Source: a virus. Taken from it: a DNA stretch of 27,147 nt. The stretch is from positions 1 to 27,147 of the IMG/VR virus record IMGVR_UViG_3300008266_000542. One strand, given 5' to 3'. The notes beneath the pieces are model-generated. The model saw nothing but the letters and a program-made list of their open reading frames with translations. It ran no database searches and was not told the origin of the DNA. Position 1 is the first letter of the stretch; each line of letters starts with the position of its first letter. The position numbers were made by a program, and so were the translations under genes. Positions 6,225 through 15,345 of this stretch are shown piece by piece.

Positions 6225-6625
6225 GCGGCGCGCTGCTCGCGTTGAGCCTTGAGCTTCGCGTTGAGGGCTTGGCGATACGCGAGGTATTTCGGCGCGTTGA
6301 GGTTTTCACGCTGCGTTCCCCAGCGGAGGTTCTCAGGCCGGTTGTTGCGCGCGTCCTCGTCCAGGTGCATGCAAACCTGGCCGGGCTGAGGCGGCCCGCT
6401 GAAGGCTTCGCAAACCAGGCGAGCGACCTTGTACGTCCGACGACGAAGGACGTACAGATACCGGCTCCCGTCCCACTGGCCGAACGAGCCGACTCCGCCG
6501 TAGATCCGTGTTCCGCCGTATGGCATCGGCGCGACGCGAGCGCAGGCGCGGACTCGCCCTTGCGATGAGACCTCGATGACCGGCACCGAGGGCACCTGCT
6601 TCCAGATTTCCTGTGCCGCGGACAT
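6221..6625 (-). CDS. HNH endonuclease with NUMOD4-like N-terminus
   Basis: This 134-residue protein starts [20 protein letters not shown] followed by SQGRVRA, which resembles NUMOD4 ('IWKQVPG...YEVSNQGRVR'). The HNH part is KVARLVCEAFSGPPQPGQV, then CMHLDEDARNNRPENLRWGT and QRENLNAP, the HNH_3 signature with H, N-N-R-P-E-N-L-x-W-G-T. Such genes are typical free-standing homing endonucleases that move between phage replication genes. Here it sits directly after ssb (TGATG at 6623-6627), a usual homing spot. A TTG three bases upstream is a less likely start than ATG 6625. Confidence 0.88.
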   Translation of the reverse strand: MSAAQEIWKQVPSVPVIEVSSQGRVRACARVAPMPYGGTRIYGGVGSFGQWDGSRYLYVLRRRTYKVARLVCEAFSGPPQPGQVCMHLDEDARNNRPENLRWGTQRENLNAPKYLAYRQALNAKLKAQREQRAA

Positions 6626-7053
6626 CAAAATGGAATCTCACTGTCGTCGAACTCGTCGCGCTGCTTCGGCTCGGCCTGCTGCTTCGCCTGGGCGGGGCGC
6701 TCCGAGCGCTGGCCGTCACCCTTGCCGCCGAGCAGCTGCAGCTCGTCGGCGATGATTTCCGTGGTGTAGCGGTCGGCGCCGCTCTTGTCCTGCCACTTCC
6801 GGGTGCGCAGGCGGCCCTCGATGTACACCTGCGAGCCCTTGCGCAGGTACTGCGCGGCGATCTCGGCGAGGCGGCCGAAGAGCGAGACGCGGTGCCACTC
6901 GGTCAGCTCCTTGTCCTCGCCCGTGGTCTTGTCCTTCCACCGCTCCGAGGTCGCGACCGACAGCGAGCAGACGGCGCTGCCGGACGGCAGGTTCTTCAGC
7001 TCGGGGTCCTGCCCGAGGTTTCCGAGGACGATGGCCTTGTTCACTCCGCGCAT
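6625..7053 (-). CDS. ssb: Single-stranded DNA-binding protein
   Basis: This 142-residue protein has the bacterial/phage SSB OB-fold: [20 protein letters not shown], then [40 protein letters not shown] and [21 protein letters not shown] Gln/Lys/Glu-rich linker leads to the acidic tip DFDDSEIPF-like end ([10 protein letters not shown]), the usual docking site for partner proteins. It would coat single-stranded DNA during phage replication and recombination. ATG 7053 has a strong ribosome site (AAGGAG 8 bases upstream), and the start lies 13 bases inside the previous gene. Placement between the helicase-loader region and nuclease genes fits a replication operon. Confidence 0.97.
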
Positions 7054-7298
7054 GTCGTGCGCTCCTTGGGTTGCTGGTTGACTGGTTGGCCGTAGACGCG
7101 CTGGAAGAGCTGCGCCCACGTCTCGCAAGACTTGCCCGCGGCGCGCCCGGCGATTGCCATCTCGCGCCCCGAGTTGACGATCGCCGCACGGATGCGCTCG
7201 CGGCGCTCCTCGCGGGTGGTGACGCCGCCGTCCCAGGACATCGGCATCCCGAGCCTGCGGGCCATCCACGCCTCGACGACGAGCTTGTCGCCGTTCAT
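7041..7298 (-). CDS. Small hypothetical protein upstream of ssb
   Basis: This 85-residue protein reads [20 protein letters not shown], then [20 protein letters not shown] and [20 protein letters not shown]. It is mainly helical and basic with no recognised domain. The ATGA overlap with the helicase-loader-like gene fixes its start. Its 3' end holds the ribosome site of ssb and overlaps that gene by 13 bases. Function is unknown; an accessory role in replication is only inferred from its position. Confidence 0.66.
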
Positions 7299-7822
7299 GC
7301 GGGCCTCCGGATGGTCGGCAGCAGCTCGGCGACCTTGGCCGGGCCGGTGACGCGGCCGCGCCACGTCGAGCTCGGCCCCGCGATCGCGGGCAGCTGCTCG
7401 CGGATCTCGACGCGCTGCTCGAGCTCGCGGAAGGCTTCGCCGAAGCGGCGCTCGAGGAACTGCAGGCTGTCGGCGTAGGCGCCCGCGATGACCGGCCATC
7501 CGCCGATTGCCTGGACGGCGCGCTCAACCTCGGGCACCGCGGGTCCTGCGCGCCATGCCCCGCGCGCGTGCTGCAGCGCTGCGGCCCACGCCTCGCCTGC
7601 GGTCATGCGTCCGGCCTTGCGCAGGTCGGTGAAGTCCGCCGGGCGCGGCATGAACCGCGAGTGCGCCAGCAGGTGCCCCGCCGCCTGCTCGAACTCGGCG
7701 AGCGGCCAGTCGCGCAGGGCGAGCCAGTACGCGTCGAGCAGCGGGCCGTCGAGCTCGCGCTCGTAGACCTTCGAGAGGCCGGCCAGCACGGCGCGGAAGC
7801 GGGTGAAGTCGTCAGCCTGCAT
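7295..7822 (-). CDS. Helicase-loader-like replication protein (P / G39P-like)
   Basis: This 175-residue protein has a helical N-terminus, [40 protein letters not shown] and [20 protein letters not shown], followed by DFTDLRK. The pattern 'yWxxLxxwpLxxFexAxxxhLxxxxFmPxPaD' is typical of phage helicase loaders and inhibitors (lambda P, SPP1 G39P and relatives), which deliver DnaB-type helicase to the origin. The C-terminal half is less conserved and may contact the initiator. It overlaps the O-like gene by 11 bases, the classic O-P arrangement. No Walker motif is present, so it is not a DnaC-type ATPase. The family call is from pattern memory. Confidence 0.68.
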
Positions 7823-8609
7823 CGCGGAGCTCCGGCGGTCGCCAGTTGGCCGTGCGGTCGACGTTCGCGCGGGTGAGCTTCGACAGGTCGGTGCGCGGCG
7901 GGTCGCGGTAGAAGCGCAGCCCGGCGTCGATGTGCTTGGCGTCGCGCAGCAGCAGCTCGATCGCGTCGTACACGGTCGAGCGGTCGTTCTGGCCCATGTG
8001 GTGGGGCGAGTTCTTGTAGCCGCTGATTGCCTGGCAGAGGTCGGCCTCGGGGTAGGCCTTGAGGGCGTCGCGGATCAGCTTGCGGCGCTTGGCGTCGAGC
8101 TTGGCGGCCGGGTGGTTGTGCACCGAGCGCCAGTGGTCGAACACGCGCTGGACGACCTCGCGGTCGGGCGTCTCGCCCGACAGAGGTTCCGAAGGAACCT
8201 CAGTACTCCTATCCCTTCCTATCCTATCCATATCAGGCGCGAGGGTTCCCGAATCACTCGCGAGGATTCGCGAACCTTCGCGAGGACCGGGGAGCTTGGA
8301 CGCGGTCGGGTGGTCAATTCGCTGGTGATTCCGCCACTTGGACACCTGCAGGTAGGTGGAGCCGTCGACGGTGTAGCGCTCGATGCACTGCTCGCGCTCG
8401 AGCTCGACCAGCCAGCCCTCGATCTTCTTCGGCGCGTCGTCGTCGTAGGGGTAGAGAAGGCTCGCGAGCATTCGCGAGGCCGCGCGAGTCCTCCCGTCGT
8501 CATCGCAAACGGTCCAGAGCAGAACGAAGAGAAGCCGAGCCTCTCGCGAGACTCGGCCCATGCTCTCGGACTGCGGGAACTCGGGTTTGATGGATCTGAT
8601 CCGTGGCAT
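7812..8609 (-). CDS. Replication initiator / replisome organiser (O-like)
   Basis: This 265-residue protein begins with the hallmark MPRIRSIKPEFPQSESMGRV of phage replisome organisers. A winged-helix region follows: SREARLLFVLLWTVCDDDGR, SRMLASLLYPYDDDAPKKIE, GWLVELEREQCIERYTVDGS and YLQVSKWRNHQRIDHPT. A variable linker (residues 105-150 or so) precedes a C-terminal helical domain, PDREVVQRVFDHWRSVHNHP, that may bind the helicase loader. It would bind origin DNA and recruit the loader and helicase. In lambda the origin lies within O, and this gene also contains phased repeats in its N-terminal and linker coding parts (8462-8487 and 8237-8283). GAGGAG just before ATG 8609 supports the start. 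It follows the Cro-like gene by 15 bases. Confidence 0.88.
   Translation of the reverse strand: MPRIRSIKPEFPQSESMGRVSREARLLFVLLWTVCDDDGRTRAASRMLASLLYPYDDDAPKKIEGWLVELEREQCIERYTVDGSTYLQVSKWRNHQRIDHPTASKLPGPREGSRILASDSGTLAPDMDRIGRDRSTEVPSEPLSGETPDREVVQRVFDHWRSVHNHPAAKLDAKRRKLIRDALKAYPEADLCQAISGYKNSPHHMGQNDRSTVYDAIELLLRDAKHIDAGLRFYRDPPRTDLSKLTRANVDRTANWRPPELRDAG
8187..8283. other. Candidate replication origin inside the initiator gene
   Basis: TCGCGA occurs at 8258, 8268 and 8278, exactly 10 bp apart, with near-matches TCCCGA at 8247 and GCGCGA at 8237, giving five phased sites. Next to them (8187-8235 or so) is a GC-poor tract whose minus strand is purine-rich, with repeated GGATA/GGATAGGA. 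Phased initiator-binding repeats beside an easily melted tract within the initiator gene is the lambda origin design. This is inferred and no binding data exist. Confidence 0.45.
8462..8487. repeat. Second phased TCGCGA cluster
   Basis: TCGCGA at 8462 and 8472 plus GCGCGA at 8482 again show a 10-bp step. On the minus strand, 27 bases here match the cluster near 8257-8283 at 21 positions by my alignment. Both copies encode R-x-x-S-R-(I/M)-L-A-S, so codon constraint could explain part of the likeness. Confidence 0.5.
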
Positions 8610-8624: not shown

Positions 8625-8897
8625 TCAGGTCGCCCTGGCCGCCCCTTTCGGGTGCGGCGCCCGCGAACGGGCTCGGACAGGGCGGGGTTCGGTGGTGGGT
8701 CGGCGGCGGGCCTCGGCGGCCAGCTGCTTGCGGTAGAGAGCGTCGAGCTCGAGCGCAGCGTCGCCGCGAGGCTTCTGCGTCCGGCCGCGCTCGATGTCGC
8801 AGACGGCCGACGTGGAAAGACCGACCAACGCGCCAATGGCGGCGTGGGTCATTCCTGCGGCGCGCAGCGCCTTGATTCGGGTGGACCAGGTAACCAT
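8625..8897 (-). CDS. Cro-like HTH regulator
   Basis: This 90-residue protein has an XRE-type helix-turn-helix near its start: MVTWSTRIKALRAAGMTHAA, IGALVGLSTSAVCDIERGRT. A basic Arg/Pro-rich tail follows, PRPVRARSRAPHPKGAARAT. It is the first gene of the minus-strand replication operon and faces the repressor gene across the operator region, the position of lambda cro. It should bind the TTACGG-N4-CCGTAA operators and lower early transcription. ATG 8897 is chosen because the HTH begins right after it. The upstream in-frame ATG at 8939 would put the promoter inside the gene. With the -10 at 8910-8905 the transcript should start within a base or two of ATG, so the mRNA appears leaderless. Confidence 0.82.
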   Translation of the reverse strand: MVTWSTRIKALRAAGMTHAAIGALVGLSTSAVCDIERGRTQKPRGDAALELDALYRKQLAAEARRRPTTEPRPVRARSRAPHPKGAARAT

Positions 8898-8904
8898 ATA
8901 GGGA

Positions 8905-8933
8905 GTTTTACGGGATAGCGTAATGACTGTCAA
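8905..8933 (-). promoter_or_regulatory. Early promoter PR-like (toward replication operon)
   Basis: Minus strand: perfect -35 TTGACA (8933-8928), 17-bp spacer, -10 TAAAAC (8910-8905), predicted start at 8899-8897. The spacer contains operator 8908-8923, and operator 8931-8946 covers the upstream half of the -35. Repressor bound to either would block polymerase. Confidence 0.82.
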
Positions 8934-8979
8934 CGGCATAGCGTAGGGAATCTGTGTCCTACTTCACGGAGTTCCGTAA
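8908..8979. promoter_or_regulatory. Three-operator array (OR-like)
   Basis: Three 16-bp sites fit TTACGG-N4-CCGTAA: TTACGGGATAGCGTAA (8908-8923), CAACGGCATAGCGTAG (8931-8946) and TCACGGAGTTCCGTAA (8964-8979). The first two are 23 bp apart and overlap the promoter for the Cro-like gene. The third lies near the repressor start and probably controls repressor transcription. These are the likely OR1, OR2 and OR3. Confidence 0.78.
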
Positions 8980-9002
8980 CCGGACGGGGTACGGTGAGAG
9001 CC

Positions 9003-9416
9003 ATGAACACGACAGGCGAACGAATCAAGGCCCGGCGCGAGGAGCTGCAGATGACCGTTGCGGCCCTGGCGAAGGCTGCCGGCATCGCGCCGACGACGCT
9101 CTACGACCTCGAGCGCGGCGACCAGAAGTCGACCACGAAGCTGCACCGCATCGCTGCGGTGCTCGGCCTCTCTACCGATTGGGTCGAGACAGGCCGAGGC
9201 GCGCGACTACTGGAAACGCCGAGGGTTTCGGACGCGCGAGCGCACTACAGCGTGCACGGTTTCATGATGACACCCGAGGCCGCGCGCGTCGCGGCCGAGT
9301 GGGAGAAGCTCGACGAGCCCATGCGCTCGCAGGTGGCGCTGATCATCGAATCGCTGGTCGCGACCCAGATCCGCTCAAAGCGCAAGCGCCCCGCGCTGCA
9401 CACCGCCGCAACCTGA
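9003..9416 (+). CDS. CI-like prophage repressor, short form without peptidase domain
   Basis: This 137-residue protein has an N-terminal XRE helix-turn-helix (MNTTGERIKARREELQMTVA, ALAKAAGIAPTTLYDLERGD; HTH about residues 19-40) and the typical end of that domain, RIAAVLGLSTDWVETG. The rest (about 75 residues, with EWEKLDEPMRSQVALIIESL) is helical and probably a dimerisation part. There is no S24 LexA-type Ser/Lys peptidase domain and no Ala-Gly cleavage site with it, so RecA-driven self-cleavage is not expected. The gene is flanked by three operators on its left and two on its right, as cI is in lambda. ATG 9003 is preceded by a weak GGTGAG ribosome site. A Met at 8994 is possible but less likely. 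No clear promoter for it was found. Confidence 0.85.
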   Translation: MNTTGERIKARREELQMTVAALAKAAGIAPTTLYDLERGDQKSTTKLHRIAAVLGLSTDWVETGRGARLLETPRVSDARAHYSVHGFMMTPEAARVAAEWEKLDEPMRSQVALIIESLVATQIRSKRKRPALHTAAT

Positions 9417-9462
9417 CCCGATAAGGGCGCGTCCGCCGCCCTGCCGTCCGCGTGGCGGTCAA

Positions 9463-9501
9463 TTACGGGATACCGTTGACATACATTACGGGAAGCCGTA
9501 C
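9463..9501. promoter_or_regulatory. Two-operator array (OL-like)
   Basis: Two 16-bp sites match the same consensus: TTACGGGATACCGTTG (9463-9478) and TTACGGGAAGCCGTAC (9486-9501), again 23 bp apart. One covers half of the -35 and the other fills the spacer and part of the -10 of the plus-strand promoter, mirroring the other array. These are the likely OL2 and OL1. Confidence 0.8.
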
Positions 9502-9504
9502 TGT
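9476..9504 (+). promoter_or_regulatory. Early promoter PL-like (toward recombination/integration operon)
   Basis: Plus strand: perfect -35 TTGACA (9476-9481), 17-bp spacer, -10 TACTGT (9499-9504), predicted start near 9511. It overlaps both OL-like operators and precedes the gene at 9549. The -10 is weak, but the geometry relative to the operators is the same as at the opposite promoter. Confidence 0.75.
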
Positions 9505-9513
9505 TCTCGACAC

Positions 9514-9530
9514 CCCCGGACGGTCCGGGG
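9514..9530 (+). promoter_or_regulatory. GC-rich hairpin in the early leader RNA
   Basis: CCCCGGACGGTCCGGGG is a perfect palindrome of 8-bp arms around one base. As RNA it folds into a strong hairpin within a few bases of the predicted 5' end and 7 bases before the GGAGG ribosome site at 9538-9542. There is no T-run, so it is not an ordinary terminator. It may stabilise the 5' end, act in antitermination, or bind a protein as DNA. Confidence 0.5.
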
Positions 9531-10087: not shown

Positions 10088-10287
10088 GCGCGCCCGACCT
10101 CGCCTGGGCCCGGTTCCGCGACCGCCTCGCCGACGCCGTCGTCGCAGGCCTGCTGCCCGCGCCGCCGCCCGTCGCCGTCCAGCTCGACGGCATCACCGTC
10201 GGCGAGCTGCTCGCCGCTCTCAAGTTCACCGGCATCGTCGCATCGAACCGCGACGGCGCCCTCGTCCTTCACCGCAGGGGAATCTGA
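10084..10287 (+). CDS. Small hypothetical protein upstream of the exonuclease
   Basis: This 67-residue protein starts at GTG 10084 in a GTGA overlap: SAPDLAWARFRDRLADAVVA, then GLLPAPPPVAVQLDGITVGE and LLAALKFTGIVASNRDGALV. It has a helix, a proline-rich turn and a second helix, with no recognised domain. The in-frame ATG at 10057 would lie well inside the previous gene and is less likely. Its stop overlaps the exonuclease start (TGATG). Confidence 0.62.
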   Translation: MSAPDLAWARFRDRLADAVVAGLLPAPPPVAVQLDGITVGELLAALKFTGIVASNRDGALVLHRRGI

Positions 10288-10904
10288 TGCTCGCAGAACA
10301 ACGATCCGCCGATTGGTTCGCCGCCCGCCTTGGCTGCGCGACCGCCTCGTCCTTCAAGAACGTCCTCGCCAAGCTCAAGAACGGCAAGCCCGCGCAGGCG
10401 CGCGAGTCGTACCTGATCGAGATTGTGACCGAGCGGCTGACCGGGCAGCCGGTGCCGCACTTCACGACGGCCGCCATGCAGTGGGGCATCGACAACGAGC
10501 CCGCAGCGCGCATCGAGTACGAGTTCCGCACCGAGCGCGTGGTCGAGGAGACCGGGTTCATCCGTCACCCGTCCATCCTCGCCGGCGCCTCGCCCGACGG
10601 CCTCGTCGAGGCCGATGGCGGCATCGAGATCAAGTGCCCGAGCAGCACGACGCACGTCCAGACGCTGCTGACGGGGATGCCCGAGGAGCACATGCCGCAG
10701 CTGCAGGGCGCCATGTGGATCACGGGCCGGAAGTGGTGGGACTTCGTGTCCTACGACCCGCGGATGCCGAAGGACCTGCAGATCTACATCGAGCGCATCG
10801 AGCGCAACGACATCTTCATCGCGGGGCTCGACGCCGAGGTCCGCGCCTTTCTCGCTGAGGTCGACAGCACCGTCGACCAGCTCACCCGGAGGAACGCAGC
10901 ATGA
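10287..10904 (+). CDS. YqaJ/lambda-exonuclease-family recombination nuclease
   Basis: This 205-residue protein carries the whole YqaJ signature: RLGCATASSF near the start, AAMQWGIDNEPAARIEYEF with E71, SILAGASPDGLV with D104, GGIEIKCPSS with E114-x-K116, and HMPQLQGAMWITG with the Gln residues that follow the active site. The family degrades one strand of double-stranded DNA ends 5' to 3', leaving 3' tails for a single-strand annealing partner. The next gene is a RecT-like protein, overlapping by ATGA, so the two form the phage's Red-type recombination pair. Length is normal for the family and all active-site positions are present. Confidence 0.93.
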   Translation: MLAEQRSADWFAARLGCATASSFKNVLAKLKNGKPAQARESYLIEIVTERLTGQPVPHFTTAAMQWGIDNEPAARIEYEFRTERVVEETGFIRHPSILAGASPDGLVEADGGIEIKCPSSTTHVQTLLTGMPEEHMPQLQGAMWITGRKWWDFVSYDPRMPKDLQIYIERIERNDIFIAGLDAEVRAFLAEVDSTVDQLTRRNAA

Positions 10905-11629
10905 CCCATACCACCGCACTCTCGACCGCCATCGGATTCAGCGACGTCGAGCGCATGGCGAACGCCGTCGCGAAGTCCGGCCTCTTCGGAGTCCGGACGC
11001 CCGACCAGGCGCTGTCGCTGATGCTGATCGCGCAGGCCGAGGGCCTGCACCCGGCGCTCGCCGCGCGCGACTACCACGTCATCAACGGCAAGCCGACGCT
11101 CAAGTCCGACGCCCTGCTCGCGCGGTTCCAGGCGAACGGTGGCCGCGTCGAGTGGACCGAGTACACCGACAAGGCGGTCTCCGCCAAGGTCGGCCACCCG
11201 CAGGGCGGCACCGTCGAGATCCGCTGGACCATCGAGCAGGCCGAGCGCGCCGGCCTGACCCGGAATGCGACTTGGAAGTCCTACCCCCGGCAGATGCTCC
11301 GCGCGCGCGTGATCTCCGAAGGCGTCCGCGCAGTGTTCCCGGGCGTCGCCGTCGGCGTCTACACCTCCGAAGAGGTGCAGGACATGACGGCCGCGACCGC
11401 GAGCTCGGTGGCGGTCGCCGACGAGCCTGTCGTGGCGAGCCCGGTGCAGCTCGTGCGCGAGGCCCCGGACGTCGACACGCTCAAGACCCGCTACCGCGAC
11501 GCGATCGTCGTCGCGCGGAAGGCGAAGGACAAAGACCTCGAGGCGCAGCTGTCGGCCGCGAAGGATGCGCGCAAGTCCGAGCTGGAGGCCATCGACGCGG
11601 AGCCCGCCGACCAGCCGGAGGCCGCATGA
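10901..11629 (+). CDS. RecT-like single-strand annealing protein
   Basis: This 242-residue protein contains a well-conserved phage pattern: FSDVERMANAVAKSGLFGVR, ALSLMLIAQAEGLHPALAAR, DYHVINGKPTLKSDALLARF, GGRVEWTEYTDKAVSA, and TWKSYPRQMLRARVISEGVR with the GVAVGVYTSEEVQD end. Proteins with this pattern are usually assigned to the RecT group and paired with a YqaJ exonuclease, as here. They anneal complementary single strands during recombination-dependent replication. The C-terminal 60 residues are charged and helical (VARKAKDKDLEAQLSAAKDA) and lie outside the core. The overlap with the exonuclease (ATGA) supports ATG 10901. Confidence 0.78.
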   Translation: MTHTTALSTAIGFSDVERMANAVAKSGLFGVRTPDQALSLMLIAQAEGLHPALAARDYHVINGKPTLKSDALLARFQANGGRVEWTEYTDKAVSAKVGHPQGGTVEIRWTIEQAERAGLTRNATWKSYPRQMLRARVISEGVRAVFPGVAVGVYTSEEVQDMTAATASSVAVADEPVVASPVQLVREAPDVDTLKTRYRDAIVVARKAKDKDLEAQLSAAKDARKSELEAIDAEPADQPEAA

Positions 11630-14174: not shown

Positions 14175-14374
14175 GCCAGTCGGAGATCGAGGCCCTGACC
14201 GGCCGCGTCCGGCCGGCGGCGCAGATGCGCGCCCTCGAGCAGATGGGCATCCCGTTCCTGCGGCGCCCCCAAGGCGCGCGCGGGCGGTCGCCTGTCGTCC
14301 TGCGGTCGGCCGTCGAGGGACTGCTGCCCGCCCCTGCTACCATGGCCCCGGAGCCCCGTCTGAGGTTGCCCTGA
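14165..14374 (+). CDS. DUF4224-like protein, possible excisionase/recombination directionality factor
   Basis: This 69-residue protein starts at GTG 14165: FLSQSEIEALTGRVRPAAQM, RALEQMGIPFLRRPQGARGR, SPVVLRSAVEGLLP. The pattern 'lTxxxrpaaQxxaLxxmGIpFxxrpxGxpvV' is that of DUF4224, a small MerR-like wHTH that regularly precedes phage integrases. Its stop overlaps the integrase start (TGATG), so the two are co-translated. A role in controlling integrase direction is plausible from context. The C-terminal dozen residues (PATMAPEPRLRLP) look unstructured. Confidence 0.75.
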   Translation: MFLSQSEIEALTGRVRPAAQMRALEQMGIPFLRRPQGARGRSPVVLRSAVEGLLPAPATMAPEPRLRLP

Positions 14375-15345
14375 TGCCGCCCCGCCAGCGAAAGACAGAC
14401 CGCCACCTGCCCGCCTGCGTCTACCACAAGCACGGCGCCTACTGGTTCGTCCACGCTGGGCGCTGGACGCGGCTCGGGACCGACCTGCAGGCGGCGCTCG
14501 CCGAGTACGCGCGGCTGCGCGAGCGGCCGAAGGGCGGCATGGTGCAGCTCATCGACGACGCGCTGGCGCACATGCGGCCGAAGCTCGCGAAGTCGACGGC
14601 GCAGCAGTACGAGGTCGCGGCGAAGAAGCTGCGGCAGATCCTCGCGGAGTTCTCGCCCGAGCAGGTGAGGCCCAAGCACGTCGCGGCGATCAAGGTCGCG
14701 CTGCGCGACAAGCCGAACATGGCGAACCGCTGCCTGTCGGTGCTGCGGTCGGTGTTCGCGCTCGCGCTCGAGTGGCAGATCGTCGAGTCGAACCCGGTGG
14801 TCGGCATTCGCCGACACTCGGAACAGAAGCGGGACCGCTACATCACCGACGAGGAGTTCGTCGCCATCCGTGCCGCAGGCTCGCCGCGGTTCCAGTGCAT
14901 GGTCGACCTGCTGTACCTGACCGGCCAGCGCGTGAGTGACGTCCTGGCAATCCGGCTCACCGACCTGACGCCCGAGGGCATCCGGTTCAAGCAGGGCAAG
15001 ACCGGCGCGAAGCTGCTCGTCGCGTGGACGCCCGAGCTGCGGGCGGTGGTGGAGCGGGCGAAGGGGCTGGGCGGCAACGTGCGCGCGATGACGCTGTTCT
15101 ACACCCGGCGCGGCGCGGTGCCGGCGTACTCGACGGTGCACGACCAGTGGCAGGAGGCCTGCCGAGTGGCCAGAGTCAGGGATGCGCACATCCACGACAT
15201 GCGGGCGAAGAGCCTGACCGACGCGAAGCGCCAAGGCCTCGACGCGACGGCGCTCGCCGGTCATGCGTCGGCGGCCATGACGGAGCGCTACATCCGCGCG
15301 CGCGAGACGCCCGTGGTGATCGGCCCGGGCGGGCGAAGGGTCTGA
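14374..15345 (+). CDS. int: Tyrosine integrase
   Basis: This 323-residue protein is a full-length phage integrase. An N-terminal arm-binding part (YHKHGAYWFVHAGRWTRLG) and core-binding part (TAQQYEVAAKKLRQILAEFS, MANRCLSVLRSVFALALEWQ) precede the catalytic domain. The catalytic set is complete: R186 in LTGQRVSDVLAIR, K209 in FKQGKTGAK, H274 and R277 in HIHDMRAKSLTDAK, H297 in LAGHASAAMTERY and nucleophile Y306. It would recombine attP with a bacterial attB. The probable attP lies immediately downstream. The DUF4224-like gene overlaps its start (TGATG). It is the last gene of the early plus-strand operon. Confidence 0.96.
   Translation: MPPRQRKTDRHLPACVYHKHGAYWFVHAGRWTRLGTDLQAALAEYARLRERPKGGMVQLIDDALAHMRPKLAKSTAQQYEVAAKKLRQILAEFSPEQVRPKHVAAIKVALRDKPNMANRCLSVLRSVFALALEWQIVESNPVVGIRRHSEQKRDRYITDEEFVAIRAAGSPRFQCMVDLLYLTGQRVSDVLAIRLTDLTPEGIRFKQGKTGAKLLVAWTPELRAVVERAKGLGGNVRAMTLFYTRRGAVPAYSTVHDQWQEACRVARVRDAHIHDMRAKSLTDAKRQGLDATALAGHASAAMTERYIRARETPVVIGPGGRRV

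Follow-up and report, generated by a model that had tools for sequence, protein, structure and literature searches.

The window, by which we mean the whole stretch of DNA analyzed here (27,147 bases, one virus record, GC content 0.69), very probably carries the immunity region of a temperate phage, and the best explanation of it as a whole is a lambda-like CI/Cro switch that would work on five predicted operators (probability roughly 0.9). This reading builds on the positions and geometry of the five sites, the gene content around them, and their conservation in other phages.

Five predicted operators over two mirror-image promoters

We found five 16-bp sites whose consensus is the palindrome TTACGG-N4-CCGTAA. 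The sites are listed here without a strand and with their scores by a weight matrix from relatives, followed by the predicted promoter elements.

8908 to 8923: O1 (OR1-like), TTACGGGATAGCGTAA; over the PR spacer and three bases of the PR –10; 16.9 bits
8931 to 8946: O2 (OR2-like), CAACGGCATAGCGTAG; TTG in common with the PR –35; 15.2 bits
8964 to 8979: O3 (OR3-like), TCACGGAGTTCCGTAA; at the expected place of the cI promoter –35; 17.7 bits
9463 to 9478: OL1, TTACGGGATACCGTTG; TTG in common with the PL –35; 22.5 bits
9486 to 9501: OL2, TTACGGGAAGCCGTAC; over the PL spacer and three bases of the PL –10; 16.4 bits
8905 to 8933, minus strand: PR, TTGACA (8933 to 8928), 17 nt, TAAAAC (8910 to 8905); 7 nt upstream of the cro start codon (ATG at 8897), with a leaderless message predicted
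9476 to 9504, plus strand: PL, TTGACA (9476 to 9481), 17 nt, TACTGT (9499 to 9504); relatives have the geometry of both PR and PL as well
8990 to 8995, plus strand: candidate PRM –10, TACGGT, 7 nt before the cI ATG; weak and tentative, suggested by the relatives

The initial annotation had proposed five 16-bp sites with one consensus, and the relatives' matrix, which was trained solely on 172 sites of other phages with the sites of the window left out, bears this out: its top five positions in the window are exactly O1, O2, O3, OL1, and OL2 (15.2–22.5 bits). The next best position reaches 7.5 bits as compared to at least 15.2 bits for the five; the many equal matches elsewhere in the genome that the initial annotation had named as evidence against a switch are not present. 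When we simulated 200 first-order Markov windows, three sites in total scored at least 15.2 bits by this matrix. A matrix built from the window's own sites separates them from the rest of the sequence (17.1 versus 9.8 bits), and when each site was left out in turn it was recovered, and no more than one further position reached its score. We found no further good operator match elsewhere in the 27,147-base record. Plain consensus matching with up to three mismatches was uninformative (5 matches found versus 4.7 expected); O2, the weakest of the five sites, has four mismatches to the consensus and is missed by such a search, while O3 is the second best site by the relatives' matrix.

The spacing within both pairs, 8908/8931 and 9463/9486, is 23 bp as had been claimed, and it also held up that each pair covers its promoter in the same way. 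PR on the minus strand and PL on the plus strand are mirror images, in that the TTG of the –35 falls within one site of the pair and the partner site extends from the spacer over three –10 bases. The –10 hexamers of PR and PL are both poor, no –35 for PRM is visible in the sequence, and a strict sigma-70 scan of the window reported zero promoters. At the predicted start of the PL transcript there is a GC-rich stem-loop (9513–9529), and many relatives have stem-loops of other sequence at the same place.

Predicted gene order around the operators

The predicted genes on either side of the sites are as follows.

6625 to 7527, minus strand: SSB gene, left of the operators
7812 to 8609, minus strand: replication initiation protein gene, downstream of cro; phrog_16167, 1.7e-42
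8625 to 8897, minus strand: cro-like HTH gene, 90 aa; HTH_31, 1.2e-7
9003 to 9416, plus strand: cI-like repressor gene, 137 aa; HTH_3, 5.9e-12; without an S24 peptidase domain
10287 to 10904, plus strand: YqaJ-type exonuclease gene, in the PL operon
10901 to 11629, plus strand: RecT-like annealing protein gene, in the PL operon
14374 to 15345, plus strand: integrase gene, right of PL on the same strand; phrog_1, 3.8e-41

The cI-like and cro-like genes are divergent with O1–O3 between them. The second cluster, OL1/OL2, lies beyond cI and has the recombination and integration genes (YqaJ exonuclease, RecT, and integrase) to its right; the tail genes are found beyond the integrase on the minus strand. 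In lambda and P22, cI lies between OR and OL, with cro and replication on one side and exonuclease/recombinase and integrase on the other. The predicted layout of the window is like that of both phages and its gene order is the lambda order, with cro and replication on the left, the repressor between the clusters, and recombination and integrase on the right. The claim that the sites flank the repressor gene as OR and OL flank cI is supported by this gene content and by conservation in 40 other loci. A terminator-like hairpin (8529–8559, minus strand) is located close to where the replication initiator gene begins.

Recurrence of the operators and their geometry in other phages

A scan of related genomes for the operator had been suggested as a check, and in running it we found that ordered clusters of sites recur in 40 other distinct loci. 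The pair-over-promoter pattern, a search pattern of 20 fixed bases, was found in 17 stretches of viral contigs (GC 0.40–0.69) and two genome contigs; the named genomes that it matched are Rhodanobacter and Luteimonas only. The pattern of overlapping O2 and O3 was found in 52 viral stretches, and we rejected matches without O1 as chance (L051, L052, and L066). In the 40 distinct loci with O1, which do not include the window, the O1–O2 gap is 24 bp in 36 loci and 23 bp in 4, and the order before cI is O1, 23/24 bp, O2, 13 bp, O3. The cI start codon is at O3+26 in 39 of the 40 loci (ATG in 34, GTG in 5), the most frequent position of the cro ATG is 10 nt beyond O1, and an OL pair with a spacing of 23–25 bp is found in 26 of the 40, at 461–2379 bp from O3. 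The O2 and O3 cores are fixed by the search pattern and are uninformative on conservation; the O1 and OL sites are free of it, though a good score was required for them to be counted, and their cores (TACGG/CCGTA) are nearly invariant among the relatives. The repressor genes of these loci match the window repressor, with an HTH identity of about 55–60% for many of them and, for the L012 repressor, 42% identity over 132 aa. A sibling contig, IMGVR_UViG_3300042691_027321, is essentially identical to the window over the compared stretch and thus gives no independent evidence.

At two places (L025 5415–5487 and L017 87–161), PR and PL face away from each other without a cI gene in between, and their O2 sites overlap. 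The promoters of L025 lead into a leaderless cro-like gene in one direction and a YqaJ-like operon in the opposite direction. We found no repressor gene within the 7–8 kb examined near these promoters. L049, L062, and L063 have an extra operator-like site, perhaps an OL3, at a distance of about 77–79 bp from their OL pair, and an extra operator-like site in L055 has a similar spacing.

The cI start codon of the relatives is preceded, at a distance of 6 nt, by a –10-like hexamer, and their PR –10 ends 7 nt upstream of the cro ATG, as in the window. The Cro-like proteins of the relatives align from residue 1, indicating that the start codons are probably right, and with the promoter placed where it is, a correct start would leave no room for a leader. 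With the cI start fixed at O3+26 and the cro start usually at O1+10 nt, both messages should be leaderless, beginning at or next to their start codons. In lambda, the cI message is leaderless, like that predicted here; the prediction that the cro message is also leaderless sets the window apart from lambda.

Placement of O3 in the window

The placement of the putative O3 is the sole departure of the window from its relatives in predicted operator geometry. The O2–O3 spacing is 33 bp in the window as compared to 13 bp in all retrieved relatives, and O3 is 39 nt from the cI ATG as compared to 26 nt. When we scanned viral contigs with a pattern for the 33-bp spacing, the only matches were two coding repeats, one chance hit, and the sibling contig. 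A degenerate O3 at 8977, the relative-like position, was rejected because it scores –10 bits by the relatives' matrix. In the relatives, O2 and O3 overlap by 3 bp and have TTA in common, so that the binding of two dimers together may be hindered there; simultaneous occupancy of O2 and O3 may thus be hindered in the relatives and unhindered in the window.

The repressor and the route of induction

In the 137-aa repressor, we found no Pfam match to an S24 peptidase domain. The structure model of the repressor has a mean pLDDT of 80; its HTH is confident and matches 434 Cro (2cro) and P22 c2 (3jxb), and its C-terminal helical pair is less certain. We saw no strict signature of recognition-helix residues diagnostic for the TTACGG-N4-CCGTAA operator. 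Among the 36 scored repressors of relatives, the S24 active-site motif is present in 25 and missing in 11. That a C-terminal S24 domain is present or absent while the HTH and the operators stay alike points to exchange of the C-terminal domain. One S24 C-terminal type (the L032, L034, and L059 repressors) resembles the C-terminal part of the repressor of Xanthomonas phage Rb1 (L076), whose operators differ, which is a sign of domain exchange.

For a repressor without an S24 domain, lambda-style self-cleavage and looping are unsupported, and the switch would be lambda-like in layout but not lambda-type in induction. Release from lysogeny would probably go through an antirepressor or some other route and not through RecA-stimulated self-cleavage. 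The Gifsy prophage repressors GfoR and GtgR are 136 aa long, have no self-cleavage motif, and are inactivated by LexA-controlled antirepressors (PMC3121763). The Gifsy and window repressors are both small and of a non-cleavable type (136 versus 137 aa); however, no LexA boxes, which would be a clue to an SOS-controlled antirepressor, were found in the window phage.

Proposed working of the switch and alternatives

We propose that the CI-like repressor of 137 aa would bind the five TTACGG-N4-CCGTAA palindromes as dimers, and that the Cro-like protein would probably bind them as well. In a lysogen, CI at O1/O2 would shut PR (cro and the replication initiator), and CI at OL1/OL2 would shut PL (exonuclease, RecT, and probably integrase). 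Because O3 is at the expected –35 of the cI promoter, its occupancy should turn cI down: O3 bound by CI would give negative autoregulation and O3 bound by Cro would give lytic commitment. Along with this autoregulation, we infer which protein binds and in what order, the leaderless starts, and the route of induction.

It is quite possible, though we hold it at a little under even odds, that there is no lambda-style competition everywhere and that CI binds all five operators and Cro O3 alone. In phiKO2, Cro is limited to OR3 and the repressor CB binds at each of the five operators (PMC4997575), and the Cro-like and CI-like proteins of the window are distinct HTH types; in contrast, Cro-like proteins are kept along with the operators in nearly all relatives, which does not itself tell the sites bound. 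The role of O3 in the window is less certain given that its distances to O2 and to the cI start are unlike those in the relatives. These distances, together with the score of –10 at the relative-like place, would fit a four-site switch of two pairs, in which 8964 is no working O3 and cI is transcribed from an unregulated promoter; however, 8964 ranks second in the window by the relatives' matrix, and we consider such a switch unlikely.

The initial annotation had suggested that a spacing of 480–500 bp could permit looping, and the two clusters are about 500–555 bp apart in the window. In lambda, the C-terminal domain of the repressor mediates looping. The window repressor is without a lambda-type C-terminal domain and the OR–OL distance ranges from 461 to 2379 bp among relatives, which leaves the suggestion unsupported, and it is doubtful that OR and OL cooperate by DNA looping of repressor oligomers. 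By far the least probable reading is that the sites are those of a host transcription factor or of a replication element and adjoin the repressor by accident. Many contigs have the sites as ordered clusters around phage cI/cro genes, in a fixed register relative to the –35 and to the start codons of cI and cro, and the overlapping pair is present in just 4 of the 395 Luteimonas-family genomes and, of 369 genomes in its class, in the seed only.

Known switches and a new operator specificity

The CI/Cro switch on five operators, our preferred reading, differs from that of lambda, which has three OL sites, in its operator sequence, in having two OL sites, and in its 137-aa repressor without S24. 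In the telomere phages N15 and phiKO2, immB has five 16-bp operators (three between the repressor and cro and two OL) with the motif TA-N10-TA, OL controls repA, and the repressor is without the residues of self-cleaving repressors (PMC4997575). The window likewise has three OR and two OL operators of 16 bp and a repressor of non-self-cleaving type; unlike in these phages, its operators are TTACGG-N4-CCGTAA and its OL is before the recombination operon and not upstream of repA. Pseudomonas phage D3 (AF165214.2) has three putative operators between cro and cI with 24-bp spacing, as the window has three between these genes; however, the D3 operators are ATGGGAATACTCAT-like and its repressor is S24-type. 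In all six compared phages with related repressors (D3, F10, BUCT708, Rb1, Acinetobacter Ftm, and a Helicobacter prophage), a TTACGG-type site is absent at cI, and we rejected the idea that they have the same operators.

When we ran tblastn with several repressors of the group against 50,697 phage records, we found nothing at 60% identity or higher, and open papers searched by operator sequence gave nothing relevant, most subscription literature being outside this search. The earlier view that the operator is absent from described phages agrees with the searchable phage records and open papers, which held no match. Taken together, the predicted operator specificity is new within a known kind of switch and is common to a sizeable group of uncultured phages. 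More tentatively, and at less than even odds, the window may belong, as a divergent member, to an immunity group that is widespread and as yet undescribed, with one operator specificity, repressors whose C-terminal domains have been exchanged (S24 as well as several short types), and leaderless cro and cI. In this group, the 3-bp overlap of O2 and O3 would perhaps make their occupancy mutually exclusive, and the window, with O2 and O3 20 bp further apart, may have lost this exclusion. If there is one such immunity group, many of these phages could be cross-immune. In uncultured phages and prophages, immunity specificity would be recognizable from its pattern, and overlapping versus separated O2/O3 and S24 versus short repressors would offer a natural series for the role of operator geometry in the lysis–lysogeny decision.
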